DNA of 62,221 bases, taken from contig JAAMXY010000010.1 in the NCBI GenBank assembly GCA_019677205.1, forward strand, positions 1 to 62,221, in the 5' to 3' direction. The stretch's first letter is position 1; each line of letters begins with the position of its first letter. A model generated the notes under the pieces. It was not told where the DNA came from and searched no databases. It was given only the letters and a program-made list of their open reading frames with translations. Below, in pieces: positions 8,665 to 60,642 of the stretch. The stretch comes from Pinguiococcus pyrenoidosus (Eukaryota; Sar; Pinguiophyceae; Pinguiochrysidales; Pinguiochrysidaceae). The translations under genes and the position numbers were made by a program.

Positions 8665-8690
8665 GAACCAGAACCAGAACCAGAACCAGA
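8665..8690. repeat. (AGAACC)n microsatellite
   Basis: Four copies of the hexamer just downstream of the Patched-like stop codon, in the 3' UTR. Confidence 0.9.
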
Positions 8691-8914
8691 TGCAGCAAGA
8701 CGGAGCAACCGGAGCGTTCCTTTGCCTCATTAGGAGCACAGATCAAGACATTGCAAGGAGTGAAAGCCGCTTGAGACCGCTTGAGGAACCTTCAACATCC
8801 CAGACTAGACGAGAAGACTGAGATTTCCGTGTTTCGATGTCTTCTCCTTTCAGTGTTTCCTCCTGTTCTATCCTTGTTTTTGACAAGTGCTTCACACCAG
8901 TCTTCCCCGAAATT

Positions 8915-24882: not shown

Positions 24883-25208
24883 GGGCCCGTAGACGATCCA
24901 CATAGGGGTAGTAGGGGAAAACTAAGATGAGTGGCTGCTGCATCAGCGAGTAGATGGTCCTAGCGCAATACGTAAGGTATGCGTGTGGGCAGCTTCGCCA
25001 CATCGCACAAGACGATGCTCCCTCCGAAAGCTCGGAGGATGCACTGGGAACCACCATAGCCAGCGTGAGCGCCGAAAGAGCGGCATGGAACGCAAGAAGA
25101 AGACAAAAAAAGGCTTCCTCCATCGCGACTTCGCCTGCCACCGAGACGAGCTAAGGAAGACCCTTCGATGCCGACGGGTCCGCCAGCTGTTCGCGCCTCC
25201 GCCATAGC
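24883..25208. other. spacer between convergent SOD and RAD51 genes
   Basis: 326 bp of presumed 3' UTRs; no feature seen. Confidence 0.5.
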
Positions 25209-27527: not shown

Positions 27528-30500
27528 ATGGGAAGTCGTGCGACAGGCCTTCCCGCTTTTCAGCAGCCTGGCGTTTGCCCAGGCGAAGCCCAAGGCGGAG
27601 CCCAAGGCGGAGCCCGAGGCGAAGCCCAAGGCGAAGCCCGAGGCGAAGCCCAGCACGAGATGCGCCGCGGCTACGCCTCCTCCGACGAGTCCTCTTCGAG
27701 GGATGGGCCGCTCTTCGACGGCAGCGCCGACTGCTGCTCCCTACAAGAAACAGAAGCTCCAAGCTCTGACGACAGCGCAGTGGAAGGGCTTGCAGTGAAG
27801 GAGGCAGGGCCAGAGGCCACAGCGCTGTTGTTGGACGTGTCAGGTGGCGCGCCGGAGGCAATGTCCCTCGAGCCCGCCCCAACAAAGACAGCCCCACCGC
27901 GGCCGTTGGCAGAAGAGGAGGAGGTGGCAGCAACGACGACGCGAACAGGGGCGTCGCCCGTGGCGGTGGACTTCAGCTCCCTCAAGCGCGACCCTGCCGA
28001 GGTGTCGTTTATGTCATCAACGACGGATCTCATCCCCAAGGAACCGCGGCAGCATGACGACCTCAGGAACGTCTTCCGCCTCCTCCACATCGACGCGATC
28101 CAGACCGACGACGCCAAGGAGGAAAGACTGCAGGAGCTTCTGCAGCAGATTCGAAGGCGTGTGCTGCCAAAGAAGGTCCAAGAGCTGATGTTGACCGTCG
28201 CCTACACTGTTCAGTCGGAGCTGGAAAGGACGCAGAGCGCTTCGGGCAGGACCCACGCCCATGAACGCTCCTTGACGAAAGCGAAAGCCATCTATGCTTT
28301 GCTTTTCAAGAAGATTGCGAACCAGACGGACTCTCCGCAGCAGAAGAAGTTTCAGAAGCTCTTCGACGAAGAGTGCGCGAAGCTCGTCTTTCTCAATACG
28401 CGAATTGGAATGATGAGGCCGCCGTCGCCTCAAGGGAACGCCGGAAGTCCGCGAGCCGGGTCAAGTCCTCGGCAGCACCAAGCCACGACGAAGTTGTCGG
28501 AGACGATTGATATGATCTTGTTCTGGTACGTTCTGTCAAGTCCTTGCCAGCCTCGGGGCCGTCCTACGTCTGGCTGTGTTGTCTTCTCCTTCTTCTTCTT
28601 CTTCTTCATCATCTTCTTCTTCTTCATCATCTTCTTCTTCTTCTTCTTCTTCTTCTTCTTCTTCTTCTTCTTCTTCTTCTTCTTCTTCTTCTTCTTCTTC
28701 ATCATCAACATCAACACCGATACCAGCATCAACACCAACACCTTCCTCATCCTCCTCTTCTTCTGCTTCTTGTAGGTTCCAGCGCAAGCTGGTCGACGAC
28801 TCAGACCTTGCCATTCCTGCTGGAAAGTGTCTGTCGTACATTCTGGGCGTCTCCAAGGTGCTCGCTGCCTGCGACCGGGCGTGGAAAGGGGAAGGCGAGC
28901 ATCGTGAGAATCGGTGCTACGCCCGCACTCTTTTTAACATCCTCGAGGACTCAAGGAGCCCTGAGCGCTGCGAAGTGTACGTAGCCATCGGTGAGAATAG
29001 AGCTGACCAGGACCTCTGCGATGCGCAAAGCTCAGACGTGGCGGCTGACTACGCGAGCAATCGAATTCAGAGAGTCGTGGACGCCCTTGTGCCTTTCACG
29101 AGGCAAAACCAAAGGGGGGTGGTACTTGTCTACGCCTTCTCGACGACTCATGGGAGGATTGAGGAGCCCCGCATGGACGTGCTGTGTGCCAACGGCTCTG
29201 TGACTCGGTTCTTCTTCCAAAACAATCGTGAAAGAGACCCGTTGACTGCGGAGATGGTGGAACAGCTGGACTCTGCGGTCTGGGTCGTACTGACGAGGGG
29301 ACCCGGCGATATTCTCCACGCGACGCCGGCCTTTCGCTGGCCGCGGGCCTTCTGGCTGAGCTTCGACCGGCATAGCGATGACCAGGCAGCATCTGCAGCG
29401 AATCGCGAGGCTGTGCAAGCGTCGCAAAGACTGCGAAATCATCTTCTGAGGACTCACGGCGTTTCCCTTCGCGAAAACACGCCAATTCGCCACCTCTGCT
29501 TCCTCTCCTTGATTCTTCCGGAGACGAGGAAAACGATGAACTTCAAGTGGATGCTAAAGCGCTGGAAGATCGACAAGATGCCCGATCACCTCAAGCCGCT
29601 TGTCAGGCTCGTGTGTCGACGCCATCAGCAATTTTTCGACGGCACTGACTATTCCGCGAGAGCAAGAGACATGTATGCACCACGACCCCATGCGCCGGAC
29701 CAAACGGACGTTCCCTCGCCGATCCCCTTCGGAAGCGATCCGACTGAAGGCTTTGAAGACCCTGATCTCGTGCAGGTGTTCAAGGAGCTGCGCGAAGAGG
29801 CTCTCAACAACGCTGAGACGACGTCCGAACCAGGAAACCCTTTAGACCTGAGCAGGGGCCTGTACTTCGCACCAGTCACCGACGAAAGCCTGCAAGGAAT
29901 CAAGCATACTGACGACAACCTAATTCTGGCAGCGATCAACACTGGGTCCTTCGAGACTCGCTTCTTGTCCATTCCGCTGCCTTCGAACGAGGAGGACGTT
30001 CTCGAAGCTGCCGGTCGAGACCTGTGGCCAGAGCTGATCGCTCGCAGGACCATACAGCCAGCCGCACGCAATGCCAATCATGCGCTGCGCCCTTCGCATA
30101 AGCGAGGCCGCCCCTTGGGGCAGGACGTCCTTCGATTTGGGTTGAGTGGGCCTGGCGTCGAGAGCGCGTCACCTAGATCTTCCAAGCAATCAAGGCTTGA
30201 CGCCGAGCCCATCGTCGAGCAGCGCAGCCAGACAAGCACGCTGGCGCGCCATTCCACCCCGATGCGTTTGGAGCCTAGCCCGATGGGTCAGGAGAACGCA
30301 AAGGTCGGAGTTGCTTCCGGCTTCGCGACCGCGCGCGGCACCGCCCTGCCTCTTCCGACTGGTCGAACGGCCGGTGAGTCCGACCCGGATGCTTTTACTT
30401 GGGGCCACGGCGCACAGCTTCATCGAGCAGGACAGCCTGCAGCTGCAGCTCCGCTTGCCGCTTTCGGCCAGGACACAGGCGAAAGCGCTCGGACTTCGGA

Positions 30501-33500
30501 CGGGTTCCAAGGAATTTTCATGGCGCCCGGGCATGTCCAGCTCCGTGAGACAAACGATGTACGAGCTCAGTCGCTCTTTGGGGACCGAGGAGAGAGTAGT
30601 GCCTTTCACGCCCTTCCCATCCAGGCAGAACCACCGACGCGCGGTGACGTTCCGCAGGCGGGCAAGCAGAGCAAAGAAGCCGCAGCTGAAGAAGAGAACG
30701 AAGCAGAAGAAGTGCAGGGACGGACTGAGCTGCACAATGCTGTCGCAATTGGGTCAGTTCTTCTCGCGCAATCGCTTCTGGGCGACGGCGCCGAGGTGGA
30801 CGCAGCGGACGCGAACATGCAGACGCCGCTTCATCTCGCTTCCCAAAAAGGTCATGAAGCGGTGGTAACACTATTGCTTTCTCATGGCGCAAATACTGCC
30901 GCAAAGGACAACAAGCCTGGTTGGAGGCTTCAAGGACGAGCGCCACTGCATCTTGCCGCACAGTTTGGCCGCAAGCAGGTCGTCGAGTTGCTTCTTGACC
31001 ACCACGCAGATATTGACATGGAGAAGGACGACGGATATAAGGCGATCCATCTAGCTTGCAAGTACGACCACCATGAAGTCGTCGAGCTCCTAGTCGCAAG
31101 AGGCGCAGACGCCAACACGCCAGATCCCTTCGGCTGGACGCCCTTGCACGTTGCTGCGCGCGAGGGCTACATGCCGATTGCGGTCTTCCTGCTCGACCAT
31201 GGAGCAAGGCTGTCGTCAACCGCAAAGGATGGGTGGACGCCGATGCATCTTGCCGCTTACAATGGGCACGAGCACCTCGTCCATCTGCTTCTAGACAACG
31301 GTGCCAACCCCAACTCCAAATGTCAAGAGGGATGCACCCCACTGCATCTCGCGTGCAGGAAGGGCCTGCGCTCAATGGTCGCTGCTCTTCTTGAACGCGG
31401 CGCAGATGCCTCCAAGCGAGACAAGGAGATGGGCACTCCACTGCACATCGCCTGCTCTGGTGAACATGAGGACATTGCCCTTCTTCTGCTGGAGCAGCTC
31501 CCGCTTGAGGGTGCCATGTCGCAGACTTCAAAGATCCTTGCCAGTCTTCACGCTGCGGGTAGCGTCGAAAGCATTTCGGACGCTCTCCGCAGCGATTACA
31601 GGAGCATAGACGCTGCCGACAAGGGAGGCCTCACGGCGCTGCACCTTGCTAGTTCTTGTGGTCAGCATCGCGTCGCTTCCGAGCTGCTCAAGCGGCGCGC
31701 ACAGGTGGACAGCACCGCGCAAGACGGCAGCACGGCCCTTCACTGGGCCTGCAAAAATGGGCATGTTCAGCTCGCATCTCTGCTACTGTCTTACAATGCG
31801 GACGTCAACGCTACAAGGCAGGACGGACAAACGCCGCTGCACGTTGCTTGCGAAGCTGATCACGCGCGTCTTGCATACCTGCTGCTTAACAAAGGCGCGC
31901 GTGTCGATGCGGAAGACGGAAAGCGCCGAACGCCTCTTTGGATTGCCTCTGAGGTTGGCAGCGTCTCTGCAGCAGAGACCCTGCTGCGTTTCGCTGGCAA
32001 ACCTTGTCGGGAACATGGATCCCACAACGTGCCTCTGAGAGGGAACGCAGGCGCCATCCTCTTCGCGGCCATCAAGAAAGGGAACGAGGACTTGGTGTCA
32101 CTGCTGGTCCAGCACGGCGCTTCCTGCACGGTTGTGAATGGCAGTGGAAAGACACCACCATACGTTGCGGCGTGGAAAGGCGAGAAGGAGATCGTCCGCT
32201 GTCTCTTGAAGGAAGGCGCCAGCTGGGACGCGCTGGAGGAAGGCGGCGAGACCGTCCTGCACGTTGCGGCCCTCGAGGGGAACCTGAAGAACGTCCGCGA
32301 GATTCTAGAGGCCGGCACCGCGATCGAAGCGGCCAACGAGCAAGGCGCTACCGCCCTCACAGCCGCCGTTTGCTCAGGCAGTGCAGACGTCGCCGCGTAC
32401 CTGCTGGATATGGGCGCGAATGTGCGCGTACAGAGCTTTGCTGGCCGCTGCAAAGGCTTCTCGCCGCTTCATCATGCGTCACGCAACGGAAACGAGCAGA
32501 TGGTGAAGCTCCTCCTTGACCACCGTGCCCCCGTGAACGTCTTCAGCCACTCCAGACAGTCGCCGCTCTACCTTGCCTGCGAGGAGGGTCACGAAGAGGT
32601 CGTCCGCCTTTTGCTGGATCATGACGAAACGATGCTCAACGCGACAGACAAGCATGGCCGCTCAGCCCTCTGGATCGCCGCGAAAAATGGGCATCAGCTT
32701 GTCGCGGCGCTGCTGCTTGAGCGGGGCGCTGCTCATGGAGCGGAATCTTCGACAGGAGCGTCAGCTCTATGCGCAGCTTGTGAGGATGGCTTCCATGAGG
32801 TTGTCAAGCTTCTCCTGGACAAAGGTGCATCCATGGATGCTCGCGATAGAGAAGGCAGGACCGCCCTCTACATCGCGTCAGCCGGCGGCCACTTCAAGGT
32901 CGTCGCCACGTTGATAGCTGCCGGCGCGGACAAGGATCTTCCTGACAAGGGCGGAAAAACGCCACTGCAGGCAGCGATCTACCTCGGCAGGACGAGCGTC
33001 GCCCAGATGCTGCACTCACAAGGCGCCGGACTTCTCAACGAGATGAGCGATCTTCACCTAGCGTCGGCCCTCGACGACCCGGTCATGTTTGCGAAGGCTC
33101 TTCTGACGACAGACGACGTCGACGCTCGCCACGAGAATCGCTGGAGCCCCCTTGACTTTGCCGCTGCCGACGACCGCGTTCTCTTCGCAAGTGCCCTCCT
33201 CGAAAAAGGCGCGAAGGTCGAAGGTGTTGACCCGGAAAGGGTGACCCCACTGCACACCGCTGCGCTGTGGGGCAAGAGCACGGCTGTGCGCCTCCTCCTG
33301 CGTCGCGGCGCCGATGTTCAGGCGAGAGACGTCAACGGAGACACGGCCTTGCACATTGCCGTCGAGACCGGTCGTCTGGACAGCGTGACGTGCATCTTGG
33401 ATCATTGCGCGGTCGTCAACGCGGCTGGCAAGTGCGGGGAGACGCCGCTCCACTGGGCCTGCCGTGCGGGCTGGTACGAAATCGCACAGCTGCTGATTAG

Positions 33501-36477
33501 CAGAGGAGCCGCCTTGGAAGTCGTCAGACAGGACAAGGCCACTCCGCTCGTCGTGTCGGCCCGCCACGGGCACATCAAAGTAGTCAACTTGCTCCTGAAC
33601 AACGGCGCCGACGTCAACGGCGCACCACAAAGCAAAGTGACGCCTCTCCATGCTGCTTCTGCGCAAGGCCACCTCGACGTTGCCGACGCGCTCCTATCGC
33701 GCGGGGCTAGGAAGGAAATCCTGGATTGCAACGGGAAGCGGGCCTACACTCTTGCGGCGGAGCACGGCCACCGCGCGATCGTGAGTCGCCTTGCTAGCGG
33801 GCTGCCTTGGACGAGCTCGAGCCCAGGACTCACAAAGCTGCATCTCGAGTGCATTCTCGGAGACGCTGAGAAGGTGAAGGCCTTGCTGGAGAGCAACCGG
33901 TATGACATCGAGACCGCCTATGAGCAGAAGTGGACGCCTCTGCATATGGCGTGTCGTTTCGATCACGCGGACGTCGCCCAAGTCCTCATCGCACAGGGAG
34001 GCGCGTGCATCGCGACGCGCTTCCCTTACACTCCGTTGCACGAGGCAGCTTGCCGAGGCTACGACGGCGTAGCGAAAGTGCTCTTGAAGCACTGCCAAGG
34101 CGAGGACGTGAACCTTCGGGACTTCCGCGGCGCGGCGCCCCTGCACGCTGCGGCTGAGAGGAACTGGGGACACGTCGTATCACAGTTGCTAGCACGCCCT
34201 GAGACGGATGTCGACGCTGTCGATTGCCATGGCCAGACAGCGCTTGCGCTTTCCGCAAAGGCCGGGCACCACCACATTGTGCAGCTTCTTCTGGATCGTT
34301 CTGCGAACCCTCTCCTGGCCGACCGAGACGGGAGGACTCCTCTGTGGTGGGCCTCGCTCTACGGTTGGGAGCGAGTTGTTGCCAAGCTGCTGCACAACGG
34401 CAACGTCGACATCCGGGCCACCCGCAAGCCCAACGGCTGCAGCAGTCTGTACGTCGCCTGCGAAGGCGGCTACTACGAAATCGTGCGCCAGCTGCTCGAG
34501 CATGGAGCCGATCCGGATCAGCCAAACAACTACAACTGCAGCTCGTTCTGCGCAGCCGCCCGAACGAACAACGTGAGGATTGCTCAGCTGCTCCTGCACT
34601 TCAAGGCAGACATCGACCGGAATCGCCAGGACAAAGAGGGCATGACGCCCCTGTACAAAGCCGCCTGGAAAGGCCACGCGAAGATGGTGGGCTATCTTCT
34701 CGGCATCGGCGCAGACCCACGTGTGGCAACTCATCGAGGCGAATCGCCGCTGCACATCGCTTTGAAGAAGGGCCACTCGCGAATTGTGTCCCTCTTGCGT
34801 CCTGCAGTCGCGGGCGCGGAGAATTACCCAAGCGAACTGCACATCGAGGCCTCGCTCGGGAACGCTGAAGCAGTTGACAGCCTCGTCAGCGGACGCGAAC
34901 TCCGACAGCCTCTTGCCTTCGACGGCAACTGGGATCCGCTGGCGGCGGCCTGCGTGGCAGGTCAGCTAGCCGTCGTCCAGCTCCTCCTAGACCGTGGCAC
35001 TCATCTCCGGGGATCTGGGAAGCAAACGCCGCTGCACCTTGCCTGCGCCCAAGGAAACGAGCGGCTGACTTGCTTCTTGCTAGAACGGGGCGCAGAAGTT
35101 GATGCCCTTGACGATATGGGCGCAACGCCGTTGATGATTGCCGCCGAGCATGGCTCTCCCCGGATCGTGAGCTGCCTTGCGCAGTATCGTGCCAATCTGG
35201 AAGCCAGGAATGGGAACGGTGAGACTCCCTTGTTCATCGCCGCGGCGTTCGGCAACGTCGGCGTGGTGATGGAGCTCCTTCGGCGAGGCGCCAACACGAA
35301 GAAGAAGAACTCGAACGATGCCACGGCGCTACACGCAGCGATCAGATTTGGTCACGAAGAGGTCGTCCGTCTCCTGCTCGACCGCTGCAACTGCCAATGC
35401 GTGAACACGTTGATGAACGGCGAAGTGACGCCGATCGCCAGCAGCAGCGGCCGCGGCGAGAGTGCCCGTCCGAAGGGAAACACGCTTGAAGAAGTCCGAG
35501 AACCGAAGCTGCAGTCCGCGAGGTGCTGCCCTATCCATTTGGCGGCTCGCTACGGACGCGTGAGCTTGGTCCGCCTCCTTCTCGATGAGGGAGCAACGAT
35601 CGACGGCGTTGCCAGCCACGGGGTCACGGCACTGCACATTGCGGTCGCAGGCGGCTACATTGACGTCGCCCAGCTTCTGCTGCAGCGTGGTGCTGATCCA
35701 AGAAAATCCTTTGGCGAGGAGAAGCGGCAACGCCCGACGCTCAACGGGCCTCCTGGCGCTGTCGGTACCCCCGAAGGTCGCGTGCTCTTCAAGACGGAGA
35801 AACGGGCCGCAACACGGCTGACCGCACTACATCTTGCCGCGCGAAGGGGCGATGTCAACATGCTCCGCCTGCTTCTGCACCACGGCGCGACGTTGGAGGC
35901 AGTCGATGGTCGGCACAGGACGCCTCTGCGGAACGCGGTGGAAGCGGGCCATCTGCCCGCAGTCAAGTATCTACTCGAGGCTGGTGCCCAGGGCAGTGAA
36001 GCCTGCCACTCGATTGCCCTTCGACGGAATTGCCCGGGCATCTGCGAGGTGCTTCGCAAGCACTGCGCGGTCGATACCGCGGCAATGTCTGCGACGGAGA
36101 CCGACTACGCATCGGAGTCCACGGACTGCAGCAGCGACGGAGACGAGTCCCTCGCGGAAGTCTTTCTTCGAGGAGATTATCGCGTCCGGTCGCCAAAAGC
36201 ATCGCGTCCGATTCCCCCAGACGCAGCGACTACGGATCGCTCGCTGCTGGTGGCGGAAGTCCCCGCGCTGGGGAGGTCCAGAGCTCGAAACTATTGGCAC
36301 GCTCCGGAGTCGCCCATGATGGAAGCGCCGCTTCCACCCCCTTTCGCCTCGCAAGCCATGTCCTCGTCCCGCAGCGGCCACCGACGACGCATGGGACACC
36401 TACGAGACATCGGTGGCCAGGAGAAGTCGAAGCCAGAGCACGGGAGCGCTTACGAGAAGCAGGTCGGGACCGCATGA
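27528..36477 (+). CDS. ANK1: giant ankyrin-repeat protein with novel N-terminal module
   Basis: Two exons, 27528-28525 and 28776-36477, phase 2 (TG|G of a Trp codon); 2899 aa from the first in-frame ATG (AGCCATGGG), though an upstream exon is possible. Order: disordered region with in-frame repeats (QGGARGEAQGEARGEAQ); helical module A at about 176-333 (EERLQELLQQIRRRVLPKK, ELMLTVAYTV, LVFLNTRIG, IDMILFW); module B at about 334-625 (GKCLSYILGV, VVLVYAF, WVVLTRGPGD, HATPAFRWP at 514, KWMLKRWKID, VRLVCRRHQQF); variable linker with basic SHKRGRP; about 50 ankyrin repeats at about 985-2760 (TPLHLAAxxGH type); acidic tail (SESTDCSSDGDESLAEVFLR). No signal peptide or membrane helix. Ankyrin arrays bind proteins; modules A and B match nothing I know, and the function is unknown. 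Exon 2 is 7.7 kb without an intron. First of four tandem paralogs. Confidence 0.85.
28586..28702. repeat. (TTC)n microsatellite in ANK1 intron
   Basis: About 110 bp of nearly pure TTC triplets with a few TCA interruptions, ending about 70 bp before the acceptor TTGTAG at 28775; acts as an oversized polypyrimidine tract. Intron is 28526-28775. Confidence 0.95.
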
Positions 36478-37998: not shown

Positions 37999-40900
37999 AT
38001 GATGACCAAAGAGGCCTCAGCGAGCAGAGCTCGACCCTCCGCTCGTCATGCTTCGGAAGAGCAGCCTCAGCGTGGAGAGGGGCGCCGCTCAGTCGAGGTA
38101 CGAAGTTGGTGGAGAGGCTGAAACCCGCGTTGTCTTGACCCTCCGCCCCTGTCTTGACCTCTGCGCCCCTTGTACCTCAGCGCGCAAGGCAGGGCGCGAT
38201 TGCTGAAACTGTGTCCGAATGTATGGAGCTCATGTCCATCGACTTCATGGAGACGAGTGACGAGAAGGAGGAGAAGCGCAGGAAGCTGCTGGAGGTGCTG
38301 CGTCGCCGAGAACTGCCGCGCGGGGTGATGCTTCTCTTGCTGCGTGTAGCGAGGGCACTTCAGAGGGAGGTGCGCGGCGCCGCCGCCGGAATGTCCTCGG
38401 ACCGAGTTGAGCAAGCCTACGAGTTCCTGAAGTCCCTACTGGAGCGTCACGAGAACAGCAAGGAGCAGTCTCGACTTGAGAAGCGCTTCTTCGCGGCATG
38501 CCATCACAGGCGCGAACTTCTGAGTTCGCGAATCGGAAGCCAACCTGGCCAAGACGGGGATCCTGCAAGGGACTCCATCATTGACGAGGCTCTTCGTGAC
38601 AAGGTCGACCTGGTCCTCTTCTGGTACGCCCGTCGCCCTCTCTCTTCTCAGATATGCCTCGCGTCTAATTCGCCGTCGCAGGCATCAGCTCATCCGTTGG
38701 CAAGATGGGGACCAGGTCGTCGAGCAAGAGAAGTGCGCCGCTTTCATCATCGGCGTCTTCGTGGCCATGCGCGATTTCGTCGCCCAGTCTGGTGTGCATC
38801 AAGACAGTCTCCCTTTCGCCCAGGCGCTTGCAGGGATCCTCAAGGAGGTGGAGGACCCAGAGAAATGTCGAGCGTACATTGCGAAAGGGGACGACGCAAT
38901 TGCTCAGGCTGAGCAAAGCTACGTCAGGAAAACCGGGTGGGCTGCACCCCCAACTAGTTCGCCCGTTGACGACCAGTCGATCCCGGTCCAGAAGCTGAGG
39001 TACTTCGCCATGGAGAGCGCGACGCCCATCGTGCTGGTGTTCGGCTTCCAAAAAGGAGCTCCAAGGGCAACGCTCCCCGTGATCACGGTGCTCCACCAAG
39101 ATGGCCGCATAACAGAAGCGGTGTTCGAGAATTCGACGACGCCTCCTGAACAGATTGCTGCGGACCTTCAACGGGGCATATGGATGGTCATCTCGAGGGG
39201 CTCCGGAAGGAAGTGGCATGCCACGCCCGCCTTCCGTTGGCCTCTTGACTACTTTCTCTTGCCCATGCAGTTGTCAGACTCGTCCTTGAGCATCCCTCAG
39301 AAAGATCTTGCCTCCTGGCCAAAGGTTCCCACAGCCAGAAGCTCTGAGCTGTCCGAAGCGCTGAGGAGCTTCATCAAGAAGCACCACAACGTCGAACTTC
39401 TTGCGGCTACTCCGATCCAGCACATGGACTTCTTGGGGCTTTGTTTACAAAGCGGGCTGAACTTCAAATGGATAACAAGGCGGTGGATGCACGTTACGAA
39501 AATTGGGAAGCTGAAGAAGATCCTCAAGCCGGCTTGCCTGAGAATCAAAGCGCTTCTCAAACAGAGAGGCTACGAGGAAATCGCCGTGGCCCTTTACCGA
39601 CTGGTAAGGGCTGTGGAAGCGCCGAGTCAGATGTTGGACGTCCCACGAGGTCAGGTGGAGGAGAAGGAACATGATCCTGCCGGCAACGGGCCGGCACGCG
39701 CGACCGACGGCGACATGGCGCAAGGTCTCGAAGTTGGCGCAGATGAGGCAGAGGAGGAGGAAGACAACGACGACGAGGAGGAGGGGGGGGAGGACTACGA
39801 CCCTGTTGAGACCGATGCGGCACGCGTGGGTTGCAACGACCCGGGTCCCTCCATCACTCTTGAGGGCTTGAATCCATTAAGTCCGCCCGATCGGTTCTCG
39901 TGGTCCCTGGAGCCTTGCTCGGAAATACCTTCTCCACCAAGCGCCACAGGAGACGACCCCTTGCATAGCTTCGCGGCAAAGGAGATCCTCAACGACACGC
40001 CGCCCTTCTCGGCAACCACCCGCGATCCAGATGACGAATTTGACCGTGTAATCGACATGCTTGCGGAGTGGGACAGGTACGACCCGCCTGCAGGCACGTC
40101 AGCAGGCGGGTCAGCAGTGCGACAGGAGCAAGAGCAGCCGGGACGCGACGATTCAGACGAAGGCCAGGGCAAGATCGGTCCGGCCGAAAGCCAGGGCAAG
40201 ATTGGTCCGGCCGAAAGCCGGGGCAAGATTGGTCCGGCCGAGGGCCGGGCCGAACCCTTTCGTGCTCCCAACGCGGCACCGCGCAGCGAAGAAGGTTCTG
40301 ACATTCAGGTTCCGCCGAGCGGGACAGGCAGCACCGTGCCACGAACTCCGCTACGAAAGAAGCGACTGCGATGGGACAAGGAAAAGGGAACTTCAGGTCT
40401 TCCCACAGAGCCTCCTACCAATCGGCAGCGAACTTCCAAGGAAGCTTCGGAGTCCGGCATTTCGCCGCTGGCTTCGGCCCGCTCTCCTCCGCTTCAAGCT
40501 GATTCGGCGGACGGCAGCATCGACCGTGAAAACCGAGCGGCGGAGACACCCGATCCGAGCACCAGAAAGCGTACGCAAGCTGCAGCGTCGAACTCGGCTT
40601 CTGAGTTCATTGACCAACCGTCCTTGGGCTCCGACAATGATCCCGACAAAGAACAAGGACCTCACGGCCCGCCGAAAACTGGTCAAATTGAAAGCTCCTC
40701 GTCCCGGTCACAGCACCCCTGGGGCACCGCTGCAGAGCGTGCCAGCCGCAAACGGCTGAAACAGGCTTCTCCAAGCGCCTCCGCAAGAAGCTCTCTGCAT
40801 CGAGCTGCCGCAGAGGGAGACAATGGCCGCATCCAGTCGTTGCTCGGAAACGCAGTCGCCTCCGTCGACGTTGTGGACTCGGACGGACGTACAGCGGTAT

Positions 40901-46900: not shown

Positions 46901-47190
46901 TCCGGAGCAGCAGGTTTCCGCCAGCCCTCAAGCAGGATCTGGCGATCGCTCTGATTGCCATGGACGTCAACCCAGACTCGGTGTCGAGCGTTGATCCCGG
47001 GCTGCGTCAGTGCATCCTGCAGCAGCTCGAGTACTACTTGAAGAGGTGGGGCCCAGCGGCGGAGGAGAGCCAGCCTCCCGCTCCGGAGGATGACGGTACG
47101 GCTGCCGGACGGCCGGAGCGTCGCCAAGGTCCAGCACCCCGGACAGAAGAGACGCCAGGGCTTCACAGTCCCGGCTGCCGCGAGGAGTAG
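37999..47190 (+). CDS. ANK2: giant ankyrin-repeat protein with novel N-terminal module
   Basis: Exons 37999-38097, 38181-38623 and 38682-47190 (introns 83 and 58 bp; phases 0 and 2); 3016 aa. Starts with tandem ATGs. Module A at about 50-181 (KEEKRRKLLEVLRRRELPRG, SSRIG, VDLVLFW), module B at about 182-480 (EKCAAFIIGV, VLVFGF, WMVISRGSGR, HATPAFRWP at 360, KWITRRW). The linker is acidic (DEAEEEEDNDDEEEGGEDYD), holds three 27-bp in-frame repeats (GKIGPAES) and a basic patch (RKKRLRWDKEKG). About 54 ankyrin repeats span about 885-2725, followed by an acidic Ser/Thr tail (SECETESTSSRSDTGSYVAE), a basic cluster (SSRKRRYEEI) and a C-terminal helical extension absent from ANK1 and ANK3. The second intron is at the same codon and phase as the ANK1 intron. 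The final exon is 8.5 kb long. Function unknown. Confidence 0.87.
40161..40247 (+). repeat. 27-bp in-frame tandem repeat, three copies, in ANK2 linker
   Basis: Units encode SQGKIGPAE / SRGKIGPAE with very few base changes between copies, indicating recent expansion. Confidence 0.9.
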
Positions 47191-47968: not shown

Positions 47969-50441
47969 ATGGCATACCGCCATAGACGGAAGGTGGACGC
48001 CGACACCGGATTGGTCAGTCGGAGAGACGCAGAAGTGACGAAATTGTCCTGTTCCGACCTCGGAGAACCTGCAGACGGCCACAGTGGGTCTCCTCCAGTG
48101 CGGTGTGGCCCACTTCCCGGGGCGCTTTTCAGCATGCGCGCTTCCTCGGCCAAGCTCAAGGTCCTAAGGGGCGGGAAAATTGCGAAGCTGCATGTTCAGA
48201 GGACCATGCGCCCCATGTTCCCGGCGAATTCCGAACCTCCCAACGAGTTTGCGAGCACTTCTTCCCCGCGCACCACGGGAACCAGCCCCAGCCGGGATGG
48301 CAGTCAGCTCAGCGACGCCGCCGGAAGGCCTGCCACCTCGGAAGTGAAGTGGGGAGCCCACGAGCCCATTGCCCGCGGCGGCGCGAGCGTGGCTGGCCGG
48401 AAGCGGGCCTTGCCTTCGGCCAAGGAGAATCCGTTCTTCAACTTCGTAGACCTGTTCCTCATGATGTGAGTCTTGTTTGGGTAGCGAGCGTGCGAGATGA
48501 GTCTTAAGCACGGTCCGGTCCGCCTTGCTGTGCCTTTAACGTCGTCTTTTCGATCCTTAGGTCGAAAAGGAAACGGGAAAACGACCTGATGATGATGCTT
48601 CCGAGCAGTAGCTGGCTACCTTTCACCCTCGGCGTTTACCTGACGATGCGCAAGTCCCCAAATGGATGCGACCACCCCGCCTACGGCATCCAGCTCTCTG
48701 ACATCCTGTCAAAGGCGAAGCGAGAAGACGAAATTGTACGTGAGATGATCGACACCGGGGTTCGGTCGCTCAACGACGCCGCCCAGAAGCCGGCCACCAC
48801 GATGATCGGCTCGGTTGTGCAGGAGATTCACCGACGCCGCCTTCGGCAGCTCCAAGGCACGCGTCTTCTATGCTCCCGAGACTTTCCTGTCACTCTGCTG
48901 TAAGTTGCTCTGCAAGAACGCGTCTCCATCCATGCCATCCCAGACGCAGCTGACCCTCTCGCCATTCCCTCTGCAGCGACCTCCAGGCGCTCGCCGTGCA
49001 GCACCAGTTTTCGATCGTCGTGCTTGAAACCGCACGACGGGCCATGGGATCCTTTGAGCCGCGCAGCATTCGCATCATCTATCCAGACGACCGCCTCGTG
49101 AGTGATCCGATTCCCCCTGGCCAACTGGCCGAGCAGCTCGACCAGAGGGTCGACGACGCGCTGTGGCTGGTATTGACCCGAGACGGGTCAAGTCCAGCCA
49201 CGTTCCGTGCTCACCCGGCCTTCAGATACCCCACGAGTGCCTGGCTTGATCTGCAGGGACCACCCTTGTTCGCAAAGACGCTCGATCCATTTGAAGAAGA
49301 CGCCCTCCGAACGCTCAAAAGGAGCTGCGCGAAGCAGACCGGCATCTCGTTGGCGGATTCCACCGACCTCCAGCGCAGCATCCTCTTCTACCTGTCCCTG
49401 TCCAAGCAGGCGAAGCAGTTCCGAGGCAAGAGCCAAGCAAAGAGAGGCCCAGCCACCGACGAGGACAGGAAGGTGAAGCAGGAGGAGAAGGAGGAGAAGG
49501 AGAAGAAGGAGGCGACGACGACGAAGAAGACAAAGTCAACAAGAAGGACCCAGGAAACCAAATGGCTGACGGAGGTCTTCAAGGTTGAGAAACGCCTCCA
49601 TGACATCTTCAAGAGCTACATCAAGGACAAATGTCTCGATGTCTGGCGGCCGCAACTGGAGCAGGCGGAGTACGCGGCCCAAATGGTCAGCAGAGAGTTC
49701 GCTGCGCCGGTCGACCGCCAGCTGCTGGAGCATCCTCCAGCCTTTTCGGCCTCGGCCTCGGCCTCGGCCTCGGCCTCGGCCTCGGCGTCTCATCAAGATC
49801 ACGAGGCGGACGACAAGAATCCTTTCTTTGAGCAGCTTAATGTGGCACACGACGTGTACGACTCGAAGCTCCGCAGCAGCTCTGGCACCGCCGTTGAGAC
49901 CACGAAGCACGATCGAAGTGTCTCGGCGCAGCATGGGTATCCTCTCCTGGAGATTCTGGAGGTTGTGAATGGCGTCCCACTCTTCGGAGAGGAAGGCCAA
50001 AGCTTCTCCGAGCTCGTCGAGGAGCTTGCGCGGTCAACCAGCCCTGGCAGCTCGGCCATGGACGCCGGAGGAGCCGCGCCGAGCCCGGCGGATGATGAAT
50101 TGATCATGGCGGAGGAGCTCGCAAAACTCAAGGAGACGTACAACCTGGAAGACGCAGCTGCTCCGGTTGAGAACGACCCCTTCCAGATACGCTCAGTGGG
50201 AGACTACCACGAGATGCTCCTGGCCGATACCCTTCTTGGAGCCGAAGCAGAACTCCCTCAGATCTCAGGATGGGATATGGGAACTGGTGAGGTGTACCTT
50301 CCTCGTGTTCCGTTGGACGGCAACCGCGCTGGCCACATCGGCCAGGCAAGGCCAGGAGGAACTAAGCGGAAGCAGGAGGCAATGGAGGACTCGCGGGCTG
50401 CGAAGCATGGAAGGAAGGATGGATGGATTTGGGAGAGATGA
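47969..50441 (+). CDS. G4: ankyrin-less member carrying the N-terminal module
   Basis: Exons 47969-48465, 48561-48899 and 48977-50441, introns 95 and 77 bp, both phase 2; 766 aa (ATG 48134 is an alternative start giving 711 aa). Similarity to the ANK1-3 module B is visible by eye: FTLGVYLTM matches FIIGVCALM, IVVLETA matches VVLVYGF, ALWLVLTRDGSS matches GLWMVLTRGPGE, and AHPAFRYP (358-365) matches HATPAFRWP. Intron positions also match. After this the protein differs: a Lys/Glu coiled region (VKQEEKEEKEKKEATTTKK), a second helical block (LTEVFKVEKRLHDIFKSYIK), a Ser-Ala repeat, acidic segments, and a basic C terminus (KRKQEAMEDSRAAKHGRKDG). No ankyrin repeats and no membrane segment. It sits between ANK2 and ANK3 in the same orientation. 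It may be a regulatory partner, a decoy, or a member that lost (or never gained) the repeat array. Confidence 0.8.
49741..49790 (+). repeat. (CCTCGG)n coding microsatellite in G4
   Basis: Eight or so GCCTCG units encoding alternating Ser-Ala within an otherwise charged protein. Confidence 0.93.
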
Positions 50442-51512: not shown

Positions 51513-53489
51513 ATGGCCTTCTCTGATGGAAGCACTGGCCGAGTATCTCGACAACCTGCCATGTCTCTAGAAGACCTGCAACGGGAGCTCAAGAAGAAAC
51601 GTTCGCAAGGCCAAGGCCGCTTTGCGGCCCCCTTGCCGTCGCTCGCGAGCGAAGCGCCTCGGTCGGAGGGCTCTGCGTCACTTGTGGATGGCGCGTCATC
51701 TGGTAAGCGCGGGGGATGCTGGAGACGTCGCCGCTCTACTGGGAGCTGAAGCTGCCATGAGGTCCCCCTTAGATTCCTCCGAAAACCCTGCCAAGCGACA
51801 CCGAAACTGCACGCACGAGGAAGGTCCTCGCCAGCCCGCTTCTTCCTCCTTGAAAGAAGCCTCTGAGACTTCATGGGAGGCGAAGGAGTGGGGCCACGAG
51901 GGACGACTTTTAGCGGCTGCGTCTTGGCGGAATGGCGCAGACGCACTTCGCCCTCCACTGCCCCACTCGACAAGGCAGCCGAGGAAGCAACCAGCCCAGA
52001 CCAGCACGAAAGCTGGGAAATGGACGGACCCAAAGCACTCGGGAGCCGGTGGGAACCGATCTGGAATTGAAAACTCCCCTGCAACCGACCCCGAGTCCAC
52101 CTCTCCTTCTCCCTTTCGCAGTGTGTTGCCAGCGAAAGCTGATCATCGCCAGAGGTCCTCGAATGCTGACGATGTCAAAGATTCAGCAGCTCTTCCCAAC
52201 GGAAAACAAGAGGCTGATCCGCTGTGGTCCTCCGTTGGTAATGGCCATGCTGAGCACTCGATGATGCCAGCGTCACCTCATGTTGGCGCGGCAGTAAAGC
52301 CTGTGAACGGAACTCAGGAAGCAGAACCTCTTTTCGACGCGAATCCCACACATCAAAAGAAGCAAGCCACTCAACATCACTCGACAGAAGTGGTGGCTCA
52401 GCCGCCGGCGGACTCCTTCGCGAAGAAGGCCGCACAAAAGGGTACTTTCATGCGTGAACGGGAAGGCTCTGCACGAACGGCTCCTTCAAAGCGGACCTCC
52501 CTTCGCGACGAAGCCGCGGAAGAAATGGCCTCTGCAACACCGAATGGAGACCAAGAAGCACAGAAAACGTCTGTGAATCCCTTCTCAGGGCAGCACCCGC
52601 AGAACGTTTCTCCTCATCCGACCTCCGACGAGCGTCAGATGCAGGAGAAGGTCCAGCGTTGGCTCGATCTCCTCTGCATCGATGGCCTTCGCAGGAGTGA
52701 GGATAAGGAGGAGAGGTTGCGGACGCTCCTGTATGAACTGCGCCACACAAAGCTGCCTCGAAGGGTGATGGAGCTGATGCTGACCGTCGCCTACACGTTG
52801 GATGGGGAACTTGCCCAGTCTTCGAGCGGCCCATCAGAAGCTAAGAAGTCAGCCTACGCGCTTCTTTTGCACAGAGTGAAACAGCAGGAGGACTCGGAGA
52901 AGCAAAGGACACTCCAGAAAGAGTTCGACAAGAGATGCTCAGAGCTGATATTCCTCAACACCCGAATCGGCGAATTGGACGACTCCGACGACGAGAGTAA
53001 CGACGCGGAGCTCCTGGACGCGATCGATATGATCCTCTTTTGGTTCCAGTGGCGCCGGATGGAGGAAGGTTGTCACTCCGTGCCGAATGGGAAATGCGCT
53101 AGTTTCATCATCGGTGTATGTGCGCTGATGACGGACTACGCAGTGGCATTCGAGAACGGTCGCGAGGATCTCCGCTACGCGGGTAAGCTTTCCCGCGTTT
53201 TGGAGCTTGCCCAAGCTTCGCAATCCCAGTGTGATTACTTGGTCCGCCGGGGAGCCGAGGAAATCGATTTGGCCACCTGCAGCCAGCGAAGGGAAGGTGG
53301 CGGCGGTACCGATCTTCCGGAAGTCGCCACCAGCGCGGACGGCGAAAATGGTGCGGAGCAAGCATGCGCTGGCACGACGATCAGGTCAGTGGCATCTTTT
53401 TGAACCTTCAAGATCGCGGTGTCTGGCTAGAATTTGGGGTCCTGCAGCAGCCAAGCACCTCGTGCTCTTTGGACAGTCATTTCACTCTT

Positions 53490-53569
<80 letters not shown>

Positions 53570-56500
53570 ACTCTCTCTCACTCACTCACTCTTTCTCGTT
53601 GGGGTTTAGGGAAATCGCCGCGTTTGCACGCTTTCGAGGGGTCAGCGTGGTACTCGTCTATGGCTTTGCCACGAGTTCACACCAGATCTCGCTTCCTCGC
53701 ATAGACCTATTGCACAGAGGCGGCGGCGTCAAGCATTCTCTGCTCGACTGCCCAAGCATTTCTGACGAGGTTGTGGAGGAACTGGATCAGGGACTGTGGA
53801 TGGTCCTGACCCGTGGACCTGGCGAGATGCTGCACGCAACTCCCGCCTTCCGTTGGCCGCTTGACCATTTTTTGCTACCGTTGCAGAGCATGGGCCAAGA
53901 CTCTTCGTCGGAGAGCACGAAGCAGAGCTGCATCAACGTTGGCGCACCTCAGGCTCAGGCCAGCGTAGTGCTCCCCGAAAGGACGGCAAGCTTGAGGAGG
54001 TTCGTCTCAGATCAGCATGACCTGGACGTGTGCGAAGACATCCCTGCTGAGCACCTCGACTACTTGTCCTTGAGTCTCGAGAAGCCTGAAATGAAGCTCG
54101 ACTGGATTGCAAAGCGCTGGCCAGCATTGGGAACGGTGCCACCAAGCGTCAGGCGATTGCTGAGGCCCGTGTGCCGCAAGCTGAGGGCGAAGCTCGACCG
54201 ACGCGGCTTCTTGTCAGACGCCAAGAAGGTGTTCCAGGTGGGTGACGATGCGGACGTGACGCTTCGCTTGGGATACGACGAAATTCTTCGGCAAGAGCGA
54301 CGGCAATATGCGGATCAAGATCACCATCCGGACGAAGATCGTCACCTTTTCGAAAATCGCCACCCATTCGAAGATCGTCACCCATACGAAGATCGTCATC
54401 AACACGATTACGAAGCCTCTGCCACAGCGACACAAGCAGTTCCCAATGCGCTGGAAGACTGCAAGATGCCCTTCGCGGATTTCTGCCAGCCTGCGAGCAC
54501 GAGCGGCATCCTAGCCGCCTTGAACCCTAGCTCGATGCAGGGTCGATTCCGGACGGTGGAGGTTGGCGACGTAGAAGCGCCGACTCGCCCAGTTGATCCT
54601 AGCTTCGAAGAGCCTCTGGACGAAATCGAGCAAGAGGAATGGCCCCCAGAAGGCGTCTCTCTTGGCATTGTAGCGGGCTGCCCTTTGGGCGTGTGCAGCG
54701 ACATCAATCTGAAGGCGGATGTGCAGTCCCGCTGCAGCATCGAAGTTGGGGACGTCATCAACGGACTTTCAGGGCCCGATGGTGGCCACTTGTCTCCATC
54801 TGAAGGCATCCAGGAGGACATCCTTGAGCAAGCTTGCCGTCGGCTAGCGCTGCACGTCGCTGCTGAATCTGGAGACGAGCATCGCGTTGTCGAGCTGCTG
54901 TCGAACGGAAGCGACGTGAACGTCCGTGACGGCGAGGGGCGGACGGCTCTTCATCACGCCGTGCGATCCAACCACTGCGGCATCATCACCAGGCTTCTTG
55001 ACGCCGGCGCGGATGTCAATGCGACGGATCGGAGGTCAAAGCTGCGACACCAAGGACGAACGCCACTGCACATCGCCGCCCGGTATGGCCATGCAGAGGC
55101 TGCAGCTCTTCTCCTCGACCGCCACGCTCAAATTGACAAGAGGAAGACGGACTCATGGATGCCCCTGCACCTGGCGGCCAAGTATGATCAAATCGGCGTC
55201 GTTGGGCTTCTTACACGCAGAGGCGCCTACGTCGACGTCAAGGAGCGGGAGGGGTGGACGCCGCTTCATATCGCGTCCAGGGAAGGCCAGCGAGCCATGG
55301 TGGCCTTCCTCCTCACGTGTGGAGCCCAGGTGGACGAGCGTGCCCTCGACGGATGTACGCCGTTGCACCTGGCCTGCTACAACGGACACAACGCCGTGGT
55401 CTCGTTGCTGATCGACAGAGCAGCTGGGGTGGACGTTGAAAAGGGAGACGCCTGTACGCCCCTTCATTTGGCGTCGTGGAATGGCCACTCTGTAGTCGTC
55501 TCTCTCCTGCTGAAGAAGGGTGCTCAGATCGACAAGCGAGACAAGTGGGAAGCAACACCGCTCCATCTTGCAGCCTTCCAAGGTCATCACACGGTGGCCT
55601 TGCTTCTCCTTTCGCACGGAGCTCCAGTGGACGCAGTCAAGCAGGGCGGGCAGACTGCGCTGCACCTCGCTGCAAGTAGGGGCCACAGGGAAATTGTCAA
55701 GCTCCTGCTCGAGAACGGCGCAGACGTGGATGCCGTTCGACAGAGCGGTTGCACCCCGATCCATCTGGCTTGTGAGCGTGGCCAACGGGATGTTGTGAGG
55801 CTGCTGCTCGAGAGAAACGCCGATGTGCAGAGCAGTGGCCGCTACTGGTCGACCCCGCTGCACTACGCCTGCCAGTGCGGCGACGTCGACGTGGCGGCTC
55901 TATTGATAGACCGCGGCGCGCCAGTGGATGCCAAGAAGCACGATGGCAAAACCCCGCTCCACTTGGCGGCTGCAGAGGGCCATGAAAGCGCCGCGCGTCT
56001 CCTCCTACGAAACAACGCTGAAGTTGATGCGGAAGATGCAGATGGCCAGACGCCGCTCTGGCTCGCGTGCCGTAATGGCCATTTCGAAGTCGCGAGGACC
56101 CTCATTCAGCATCACGCCGACGTGGAAGGGCCCAGAAGCACAGATAAGAGCTGGACCATTCTCTTCGTTGCTTGCCAGCAGGGCCATGCGGAGATCGTGT
56201 CACTGCTGCTTGACCATGGCGCGAACAAGGAAGCCAAGAGCATCAGCGGGGGGACGCCTCTGTATCTGGCAGCCTGGCGGGGGAAAGCTCACGTGGTGAG
56301 GTTGCTGCTTAGCAAGAGTGCAGACCGAGCCGCTCTCGAAAGGGGTGGCGAGACGAGCCTGCACGTCCAGGCCCTGATCGGGAACCTGAAGACGGTGCAA
56401 AGGCTGGTGGAACGAGGAGCCGTCATTGAAGCCGTCAACAGCAGAGGCTCGACCCCTTTGACCGCAGCAGTCTGCGCGGCCAAGCTGGACGTCGCCATGT

Positions 56501-59500
56501 ACCTGTTGGACAAAGGCGCGAACATCGATGCGCAGATCACCTCTAGCTGGTGCAAAGGCTACTCGCCCCTCCACCACGCTTGCAAGGGGGGCAACTGCGA
56601 CATGGTGAAGATGCTCCTTGATCGCGGGGCTTGTGCTGAGATTCGGGATCAGCATGGCCGAACGCCCCTACGCCTCGCCGCGCAGGAAGGGCATCTCAAC
56701 GCCGTTCAGTTCCTGCTCGACGCCGACGCAAATGTGCAGATCGACGCAAAGGACCGAGAGGGCCGGACCGCGCTCTGGATTGCCGCTCGGAACGGATACG
56801 AAGAGATCGCGTCCCTGCTCCTTGCTCGTGCGGCGGACGTGCATGCCACGACATGGACTTGCGGAGCCACCGTGCTCTTTGCGGCTTGCCAAGGTGGACA
56901 TCTTGATGTTGTGCACCTGCTGCTCGGCGCGAAGGCTACGGTAAACACGCGGGACAACCAAGACCGGACGCCTCTCTACGTCGCTGCCGTTGGTGGTCAC
57001 GACTCCGTCGTGGCCGCGCTTCTGAAGCATGGGGCGGATTCGACGCTACAGGCAAAGGACGGAAGGACGCCGCTGTGCGCAGCGCTCTATGCAGGCCAGC
57101 TCAACATCGTGCGCTTGCTGCGTGGGCACCATTGCCCGGAGCGGGACGGTCTCAGTGAGCTGCATATGGCTTGCGTCCTTGGTGACCTCCGACGAGTTCG
57201 ACAACTGCTCAGCATGGAAATCGACGTCGATACGCCGCATGAAGGGAGGTGGAGTGCGCTTGATCTGGCGGCTCTTCTTGGTCGCGTCGAGCTCGCTCGA
57301 CTGCTGCTGGATTCCGGTGCGGACGTCTCCGGCAAGGATCCGCGAGGCGTCACTCCGCTCCATTCTGCAGCATGGTGGGGAAAGGAAGAAGTTGCTCGCC
57401 TGCTGCTGGAGGCCGGTGCGGACATCAACGCCAAGGATCTGGATGGCTTGACACCTCTGCACTTTGCGTGCCAGAGCGGACAGGTCGCGGTCGTGTCTCT
57501 CTTGCTCGACGGCCGGTACGGAGCAGCTATCAACGCGAAGGGCAAGTGCGGAGATACTCCGCTCCACGCAGCTTCACGGACAGGAAAGCTTGTTGCCTTG
57601 AGGCTCCTTCTCGAGAAAGGGGCGGACCTTGAGGCCGTCACACACAGTGGGGCGACTCCCCTTCTAGCCGCGTCTAGGTGCGGACACGCGCCGTCGGTGA
57701 AGCTCTTGCTTGACCACGGAGCGCTGGTGGATGGGGCGCCTGGCTTGAGCGATACGACGCCGCTGCTCGCCGCTGCAGCGCAAGGGCGGCTTGACGTCGT
57801 CTCCCTTCTGCTGTGCCGAAACGCCAGAAAGGCAACAGACAACCAGAAACGGACTGCGCTGTGCGTCGCGGCGGAGGCTGGCCATAAAGCTGTGGTGCGG
57901 CTGCTCAAACGCCGCTGGAGTTGGTCGGAATCCGAGTGCAAGTACAGTGCGCTGGAACTCGCATGCATCTTTGGCGACATCGGGGAAGTCCGGGAGCATC
58001 TTCTCACCTGCAACAGGGGTCCCCTCAGAGCGGACAAGGGCAAGTCGAGTGTACTGGAACTAGCCAGTCGCTTTGGCAATGAAAGCATCGTGCGGCTGCT
58101 GCTAAACGAGTTTGGGAACTCTGCGGGAAATCTACCACCGACAGCTCTGCATACTGCGGCGGCCGCTGGTCACGGGAGCGTTGTGAACGCTCTCCTCGAG
58201 ACGAACGTGGACCTGAATGCTCGCGACTACGAGCGCCGGACAGCTCTTCATCTGGCAGCCTCTCAGAATCGGGTTGAGGTTGTCGAGCTTCTGCTGAAGG
58301 CCGGTGGCGTGGAAGTGAACGCCTGCGACCGCAAAGGCCAGACCGCGTTGGCCATAGCATCGAGAAGAGGCCACAGCTTTGTGGTTGACCAGTTGCTACG
58401 CCACGGAGCGAATCCACTGGCTTCCGACGAGGACGGGCGCAAGCCACTTTGGTGGGCCGCCGCAAACGGGAACACCAAGACTGTCACGCTCCTTCTGCAG
58501 CACGGGGACGCTGACGTGGAATGCCAACGGACGAGCGATGGCTGCACCGCTCTGCTCGTCGCCTGCCAAGGTCGGTTCCACAACGTCGTTCTCGAGCTCC
58601 TCCGGGCGGGCGCGAACGTTAACAGCCCTACCAAGGACGGTCGCACTCCTCTGATGGCCGCGGCACGAAGCAACTCCACGTCAGTTGCCACCCTTCTTCT
58701 CAGGAGCCAAGCAGACATCAATTGGCAGGACGGAAGCGGTCGCACTGCGCTCCACGAGAGCGCTCAGCACGGCCACGTAGCCATGGTCCGGTTGCTGGTG
58801 GACAACGACGCGGTTTCCAACGTCGTCTGCGACGGCAACGCCACGGCGCTGCATCTAGCGGCAAGAGCCGGTCATTCCGGCGTCGTGTCCATACTCTGGA
58901 CGGCCGGTACCAGATACCTTCGCACCCAGATCACTGAGCTGCACATCGCATGCTCTCTGGGTCGCCTGGACGACGTCAAGGCTTTGGCAGCTTCCGGCGC
59001 AGACGTCTGCTCTGAAACGGTTCGTGGTTGCACTCCACTGCGGTTGGCGTGCGCAGCTGGGCACGCCGGCGTGGTCGGGTACCTTTTGGACCATTTCGGA
59101 GCCGCTCTGGAAGGCGAGCGCGAGGCTGCTCTGCACGTGGCCTGCGCGATGGGAAGGACGGATGCGGTGGCGCAGCTGCTGCTCTTTGATGCTGACATCG
59201 ACGCGAAAGATGACAGCGGAGATACTCCGCTGAGCGTTGCTGCCGCGAATGGATGGGACGACGTTGTACGACTCCTTCTGGAGCGGGGCGCGGACACGGG
59301 GGCATTGAACCACTGCGAGCAGTCTCCGCTGCATGTCGCCGCCGCCCACGGCGGCGCGAGCGTGGTGTCGCTCTTGTTATACCATGAATCCAGGTCGGGC
59401 AGGCTGAGCACGGACGTTTTGATGCCGCTGCGCGTTGCCATTCGTTCGGGCAACGAGGAAGTGGTCCATTCGCTGCTGAGGCACTGCCAGGAGATCGACG

Positions 59501-60642
59501 CTTCCGGGAGGACTTCCCGGTCTGCGTCCATCGACGAGACCACCACTGGCGGAGACGAGTACGCCGCCGAGAACGCCGTGCCGAGACTGTCGGCGAAGGG
59601 GTACCGACTCATCCATTTGGCAACCAAGAGCGGGTGTTCCACCACGGTCCGGCTCCTGCTGGACAATGGGGCCGATGTCAACGGGACCGCAGAGAAGCAG
59701 GTGACCGCTCTCCACATCGCCGTTGCCGAAGGGAACACTCGGATCGCAAAGCTCCTTCTGGACGAACACGCGGACGTTAACGCGGCCTTCGGGGCTTTCA
59801 CCGGACACGACGCGGCGGTGCCGGAGTCGAGAAGTGGAAGACAAGGGCGGGCATCCCCTCGATCTCAAAACTCGAGATCCTACGCTCTGCATCTTGCTGC
59901 GCAGGGTGGGGACGAAGGAATGGTTCGTCTGCTCCTTGACTACGGAGCCGGTGTGAATTGCCAGGACAGCAGGGGCAGGTCGCCGTTGCACTTTGCAGTC
60001 GAAGGTGGCCACGAGGCCGTCGTCCGGCTGCTCCTTATGCGCGGTGCTATCAGCTTTAGCTATCTCTCGCGTGCTGCGCTGGCTAGGCAGCTCACGAACA
60101 TCGCTGAGCTGCTGCAGCGGGTGTCCCAGCAAGACTCGCAGCCCTCCAGCGAACCCGAGACCGAGACCGAGACCGAGACCGTTAGCTCGGACGAGGACGA
60201 CTACACCTCGCTCGTCTATCTTCGCAATTCGGTCCTTTCCCCTCCCCTTGAAGGGCGCCGAGGCCAGGAAGCCAGCTTGGCTTCTGCGGGCTTTGCGGAC
60301 GCCGTTGGCGGTTGCGAGCTAGCGCTTGGCTCACAGGATGCTCCATCGGCCCCCGTACCTACGACTCTCGATTCCACGATGATGGCCGTTCTTCGTGAAG
60401 CCGGCTACCTGTCGACGGGAGCTCAAAGGACTGAGCATCTCAGCCAGCGACAGCACGCTACACTAGGGCCTGATGCGCACTGGTTCTACAGCATGCAGTG
60501 CAAGAAGGAACGTGCGGATGCCCTGGGGATGCGTCAAATGGCAGGCAGGCAAACAAGCTCGTCGAAACGCTTTTCCTCTGAAATGCCAAGCTCCCAGGGC
60601 TCTCCCGGACGCAGCAAGAGGCGCAGGCGTTACATCCTTTGA
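51513..60642 (+). CDS. ANK3: giant ankyrin-repeat protein with novel N-terminal module
   Basis: Exons 51513-51702, about 51746-53384 and 53610-60642; about 2953 aa. Intron 1 (43 or 49 bp, acceptor 51745 or 51751) is very short and the least certain join; intron 2 (225 bp, phase 2) is firm. Long disordered N terminus, then module A at about 366-496 (KEERLRTLLYELRHTKLPRR, ELMLTVAYTLDGEL, LIFLNTRIGE, IDMILFW), module B to about 800 (GKCASFIIGV, SVVLVYGF, LWMVLTRGPGEM, HATPAFRWP at 685, WIAKRWPALG). The linker contains a His/Asp/Arg repeat (DEDRHLFENRHPFEDRH). About 52 ankyrin repeats lie at about 1023-2777, then an acidic tail (PETETETETVSSDEDDY) and a basic C terminus SKRRRRYIL. Unlike ANK1, ANK2 and G4 it lacks an intron at the ILFW position, but shares with G4 an intron before module B's VLVY core. 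Function unknown. Confidence 0.85.
53499..53600. repeat. (CT)n microsatellite in ANK3 intron 2
   Basis: About 33 CT units grading into CTCACT, ending a few bases before the acceptor GGTTTAG at 53609; like the ANK1 intron, a hugely extended polypyrimidine tract. Confidence 0.95.
54310..54405 (+). repeat. 15-24 bp in-frame repeat in ANK3 linker
   Basis: Five degenerate copies of GAAGATCGTCACC(C/A), encoding EDRHP/ENRHP/EDRHQ; His-Asp-Arg rich. Confidence 0.85.
60155..60181 (+). repeat. (GAGACC)n coding repeat in ANK3 acidic tail
   Basis: Encodes the ETETETET run of the acidic tail. Confidence 0.9.

Follow-up and report, generated by a model that had tools for sequence, protein, structure and literature searches.

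An orphan two-part module joined to long ankyrin arrays in a tandem gene family of Pinguiococcus pyrenoidosus

Four neighbouring genes of the alga Pinguiococcus pyrenoidosus raise the question of what a protein family might do that couples very long ankyrin arrays to a module of unfamiliar sequence: does it recognize, hold or modify a partner? The window (the whole stretch of DNA analysed, 62,221 nucleotides, C6:1-62221) belongs to an assembly of 23.7 Mb in 768 contigs. The original prediction described a tandem set of four genes with an unrecognized, N-terminal module made of two blocks (A and B), and suggested local expansion in the manner of receptor-like families.

The tandem locus and its gene models

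ANK1, ANK2, G4 and ANK3 follow one another head-to-tail along the plus strand at 27528-60642, and both the open frames on this strand and the module matches bear out four tandem genes with a common module. An ANK3 query comprising blocks A and B matches both blocks in ANK2 (block B, E 1e-41; block A, E 8e-17) and in ANK1 (block B, E 1e-30; block A, E 3e-22), as expected if the three ankyrin genes have the two blocks in common. The presence of block B in G4 is likewise upheld, by a match to the module of the family member C646 (E 1.2e-17); G4 consists of block B and the final stretch of block A, with most of A missing. Module identity among the four is 17-33%.

All four genes and their parts are read on the plus strand, and ANK1, ANK2 and ANK3 have the order A-B-ankyrin. 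ANK1 (27528-36477; 2899 aa) has a modelled intron at 28526-28775, block A at 28056-28439, block B with its GKC and LHATPAFRWP motifs at 28777-29670 (placed by the query match and alignment), and an ankyrin array at 30691-36169 (approximately residues 972-2798). ANK2 (38223-47190; 2969 aa) has a modelled intron at 38624-38681, block A at 38223-38623 (match 38199-38645), block B with EKC and WHATPAFRWP at 38689-39591, and an array at 41056-46420 (approximately residues 926-2714). The start codons of both genes represent a choice. G4 (48134-50441; 711 aa) has modelled introns at 48466-48560 and 48900-48976 and is without an ankyrin array. ANK3 (51688-60642; 2909 aa) has block A at 52624-53040 (the ILFW motif was taken by eye as its end), block B carrying GKC and LHATPAFRWP at 53041-54258, interrupted by an intron at 53385-53609, and an array at 54811-60223 (approximately residues 967-2771). 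Array coordinates were converted by hand from residue numbers.

Splice junctions are GT-AG models and, among several possible pairs, the one fitting the relatives was taken. For ANK3 there is a separately assembled protein, P0006 (2,718 aa, JGI source), that is 99.7% identical to it from residue 192; the modelled intron is absent from P0006, the junction is exact, and module and array stand within one protein. P0006 probably derives from a transcript. Long microsatellites lie within the modelled introns of ANK1 and ANK3 (TCT at 28582-28700 and CT at 53485-53597, respectively); they keep frames open over part of the introns and could thus mislead ORF callers. The linkers between module and array carry in-frame tandem repeats, with a 27-base unit in ANK2 (40158-40241) and an 18-base unit in ANK3 (54333-54398). 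We do not claim that the ANK2 tail (approximately residues 215-247) is a block A relic, which would make ANK2 and G4 a split gene: its match had an E-value of 0.26, compared to 0.31 for an unrelated frame, among 930 window frames plus five tails.

Elsewhere in the window, positions 5-1786 encode a sulfate permease that includes a STAS domain and gives a cyclic-nucleotide-binding match slightly below cut-off; sterol-sensing/Patched and MMPL frames lie at 6453-8645, and a minus-strand Rad51 frame at 24943-25566. A giant-virus origin was set aside, given these sulfate-transporter, sterol-sensing and Rad51 frames on the contig and 29 light-harvesting matches in the genome. The best PDB match of one such light-harvesting protein is VCPI-6, which we take to be a violaxanthin-type antenna subunit.

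Family members, domain order and relatives

A genome search with the ANK3 query gave 17 matches on six contigs. Four further queries added ANK4, and gave nothing stronger off the family contigs than weak matches at E 0.02 and 0.39, for a family of 11 members on six contigs (ANK1, ANK2, G4, ANK3, ANK4, C253, C263, C404, C646, C558+ and C558-). ANK4 is a fifth tandem gene approximately 10 kb past the window (C6:72816-81684, reaching the contig end). The four predicted genes therefore stand but their total does not: with ANK4, a single contig carries five members or more, which agrees with the predicted local expansion. Between ANK3 and ANK4, 8,907 bases (C6:62222-71128) are read as N, so an extra family member could lie there.

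Domain order varies among members. The N-terminal position of the module holds for ANK1, ANK2 and ANK3 but fails for four members in which the module, or part of it, lies behind the ankyrin array: ANK4 and C253 have the order ankyrin-A-B, C558+ has ankyrin followed by a degenerate block B, and C558- has ankyrin followed by block A. A frame adjoining C558- (C558 minus strand, reverse-complement 7524-8726) appears by eye to be Hint (hedgehog/intein)-like. C646, like G4, is without an ankyrin array. C263 and C404 have in common an N-terminal region of approximately 460 residues (approximately 45% identity) ahead of the A-B module, and this region gave no credible Pfam match in the C263 protein P0007.

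Two introns occupy the same alignment places across members. Intron 1, just ahead of a QR+R motif, was modelled in nine of ten block-B members (the exception being ANK3), and intron 2, ahead of (D/E)LxAxA, in eight of ten (excluding ANK1 and ANK2). These recurring positions would support common descent of the members, a support that is not independent of the alignment, since joins were chosen to fit relatives. C263 and the EukProt protein P0007, from Pinguiococcus pyrenoidosus, are the same protein except for their splice sites (95.8% identity over 1,459 aligned positions); the P0007 sites keep two stretches missing from the paralogues, and the C263 joins that fit the family are more likely.

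The description of the module as unrecognized held in profile comparisons with Pfam, NCBIfam, PHROG and the PDB, none of which gave a credible family match; the best matches (E 0.01-0.05) link single members to unrelated models. No relative of the module was detected in viral contigs or prokaryote genomes, nor in phages using P0005 as a query. A word-based search of 5.8 billion proteins found three relatives: P0005 (one match among 7,488 candidates; 55% identical to G4), P0006 (one among 1,598) and P0007 (one among the at least 7,999 candidates listed), two of which come from this or a near-identical alga. To be matched in this search, proteins must have five-residue words in common and be of similar length, so that more remote relatives could have escaped it. 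We conclude that this is a real family with an orphan two-part module, seen so far only in the pinguiophyte lineage. No paper on Pinguiophyceae and ankyrin was found within the literature searched, and we make no claim of absence from print beyond it.

Collinear ankyrin arrays with a conserved groove

The large ankyrin arrays that had been predicted are recovered by curated profiles over cut-off, with Ank_2 present in many copies (26, 28 and 28 stretches in P0006, ANK2 and ANK1 exon 2, respectively), and they are free of introns in the frames read. Six of the seven arrays (ANK1, ANK2, ANK3, ANK4, C558+ and C558-) are collinear over approximately 1,800 residues, with best pairwise alignments of 1,780-2,218 residues. 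Across 1,755 gapless columns, identity is 36-53% in register and 22-25% one repeat out, in an array alignment that favours its own register; in a gapped comparison of ANK3 (as P0006) with ANK2, identity is 39.6% in register and 30.7% out of register. A script applied to seven other ankyrin loci yielded usable frames for three (C591, C699 and the family member C253), all of which align to the six arrays about equally well in differing registers. The C253 array is shorter and its register is not unique. Variation in repeat number or register between paralogues, as a diversifying family might show, is thus confined to C253.

Conservation beyond the ankyrin consensus, calculated from 33 of 48 repeats, is 0.29 at the inner-groove positions 8, 11 and 12 and 0.27 at the beta-finger, compared to 0.11 in loop 25-28 and 0.06 at the outer helix; the assignment of groove and outer-helix positions follows what we take to be the usual ankyrin numbering. 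The groove is not more variable than the rest of the repeat: it is conserved, and the outer helix is variable. A groove conserved among paralogues indicates a common, conserved partner and, together with the collinearity of the arrays, argues for a fixed scaffold and against diversifying receptors. Scaffolding or substrate binding is the better fit to the arrays.

Module and array give conflicting trees. The module tree groups ANK1, ANK2 and ANK3 (100/99) and places ANK4 with G4 and P0005, and the array tree joins ANK3 and ANK4 (100/100). Each data set rejects the grouping of the other (arrays, p-AU 1.6e-6; module, p-AU 5e-4), which means that the parts have been recombined or converted.

Block B as a candidate cysteine hydrolase

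An alignment of block B with 11 rows contains 19 columns that are invariant in eight members (ANK1, ANK2, ANK3, ANK4, C253, C263, C404 and C646), including one Cys (C29) and one His (H200; both in the ANK3 numbering of the aligned piece). A Cys followed by a downstream His is present in 8 of the 11 rows and absent from G4, P0005 and, as aligned, C558+. G4 departs at four of the 19 columns (Q13K, C29W, L140V and H200R). In P0005, which starts later, 16 of the 19 columns are covered and three of these differ (C29R, L140V and H200S); both sequences thus have neither Cys nor His and keep most other invariant positions. Among the 33 columns common to at least seven of the eight members, G4 departs at seven and P0005 at five, C29 and H200 included. 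C558+ departs at 10 of the 19, again including both, with a neighbouring His in VHAAIRWP that could align. By hand arithmetic, the chance of hitting both Cys and His is p ~0.035 (4 of 19) for G4 and ~0.025 (3 of 16) for P0005, values that are biased because the eight-versus-three split was made knowing the Cys/His state; G4 and P0005 group as sisters, so the absence of the pair from both is to be taken as a single event. The original prediction correctly assigned block B to G4, but left unremarked both the invariant pair and its absence there. This pattern leads us to predict that the eight Cys/His members are enzymes and that G4 is a dead copy.

By eye, the succession of GxC, hydrophobic helix, (D/E)LxAxA with a hydrophobic strand, strand and His in block B echoes the OTU pattern. 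In local hhalign comparisons, block B scored 25.2 against OTU; reversed profiles scored 13.7-15.1, and none of 200 column shuffles reached this score (mean 11.8, maximum 22.3). Six other profiles (two overlapping) gave 9.4-17.2 against block B, and papain 16.0. When the comparison was global, the score of block B was attained by 2 of the 200 shuffles. The hhalign probability was 8.4-9.9% (local) and 0.7-3.4% (global) for the whole set and 0.4-13.8% for three subsets. When ten true OTUs were withheld from the profile in turn, they reached probabilities of 91.7-99.6% and scores of 43.5-141, compared to 25.2 for block B, which by this measure is no OTU. Most of the local match comes from a single helix-strand segment (approximately 19 columns), and ANK1, ANK2 and ANK3 alone score 14.6, equal to background. 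PF02338 gave no OTU match at E≤10 in eight of eight module rows, G4 included, a null result of limited reach since HMMER filters drop most matches above E ~0.1; in a genome search at E≤0.1 it matched seven places, none at a family locus. Most OTUs compared have an Asp or Asn at the second position past the His (HYD/HYN); block B does not, the eight His rows reading HA[THR][PT]. Block B failed these tests of OTU membership and is possibly OTU-like at most, a resemblance weaker than the prediction of a cysteine hydrolase.

Proteins combining ankyrin repeats with an OTU domain occur in Spiroplasma and Wolbachia; these are bacterial symbiont proteins, likened to the present family by domain combination. 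TRABID/ZRANB1, as described in PMC3705208, is an OTU deubiquitinase with an N-terminal ankyrin ubiquitin-binding domain, and its linkage specificity needs these repeats. It likewise has ankyrin repeats and a Cys-His enzyme in one protein, the enzyme being known in TRABID and predicted here. The two differ in that block B is unmatched by OTU profiles, the repeat domain here extends over approximately 1,800 residues, and the module lies on either side of it. The same paper describes FAM105A, which has an OTULIN-like OTU domain without catalytic triad residues (PMC3705208) and is comparable to G4 as a proposed family member lacking catalytic residues; the fold of G4 is putative.

We tentatively favour the view that these are lineage-restricted large proteins in which a two-part module is coupled to a long ankyrin superhelix, with block B a predicted cysteine hydrolase. 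Block B would most likely act as a protease or in the manner of a deubiquitinase, with a distant resemblance to OTUs, and block A, predicted to be helical, would be its partner or regulator. The ankyrin groove would hold a common extended partner or substrate for the enzyme to act on, and G4, as a catalytically dead and array-free copy, could compete with or regulate the active members. It is also a real possibility that block B is a non-enzymatic binding domain in a scaffold protein, its Cys and His serving structural roles (disulfide, metal or packing) and lost once by drift in the G4/P0005 lineage: there is no credible family match, the OTU tests fail, the tree makes the loss a single event, and a scaffold needs no more than long arrays with a conserved groove. 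Against it, the changes in G4 and P0005 hit both Cys and His and spare Trp, Gly, Phe, Arg and Pro invariants, a pattern that structural roles alone would not predict.

A recognition or receptor-like family diversifying locally, as originally suggested, is unlikely. The tandem expansion to at least five genes on one contig is what such a family would display, and the placement of the module on either side of the array, the conflicting trees and the unlike C253 array are also in its favour; the case against it is that six arrays keep their length and register, with conservation in the groove and variability in the outer helices. In the brown-algal LRR-ROCO candidate immune receptors, another large repeat-protein family of an ochrophyte alga, the repeats are separate exons that undergo shuffling and are subject to diversifying selection (PMC11378527), unlike the six collinear arrays here, which are uninterrupted by introns and conserved in the groove. 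We regard as very unlikely that the proteins are nuclear regulators, in which the module would bind DNA or proteins of chromatin and the acidic tails would act as activation or interaction segments. Basic stretches near the ends of ANK3 (SKRRRRYIL) and ANK2 (SSRKRRYEEI) and acidic-aromatic segments in C253 would suit such a role, but these motifs were judged by eye with no control and no DNA-binding family was matched.

The hydrolase reading in its fullest form is doubtful: block B as a new cysteine-hydrolase family, so far of pinguiophytes only, that would act on a ubiquitin-like or other protein held by a groove of approximately 50 repeats, with dead regulators such as G4 and the module at either end of the scaffold. 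Such proteins may form a private protein-processing system, with enzyme activity as the predicted part. If the hydrolase reading fails, the family would still be an orphan two-part domain family with recurring introns, absent from the domain libraries searched. If it is true, an ochrophyte lineage would have a cysteine hydrolase of its own on a conserved ankyrin scaffold of great length, one or more paralogues would be without the catalytic pair, and the family would be a clear test case for recombination between a repeat scaffold and an enzyme module.
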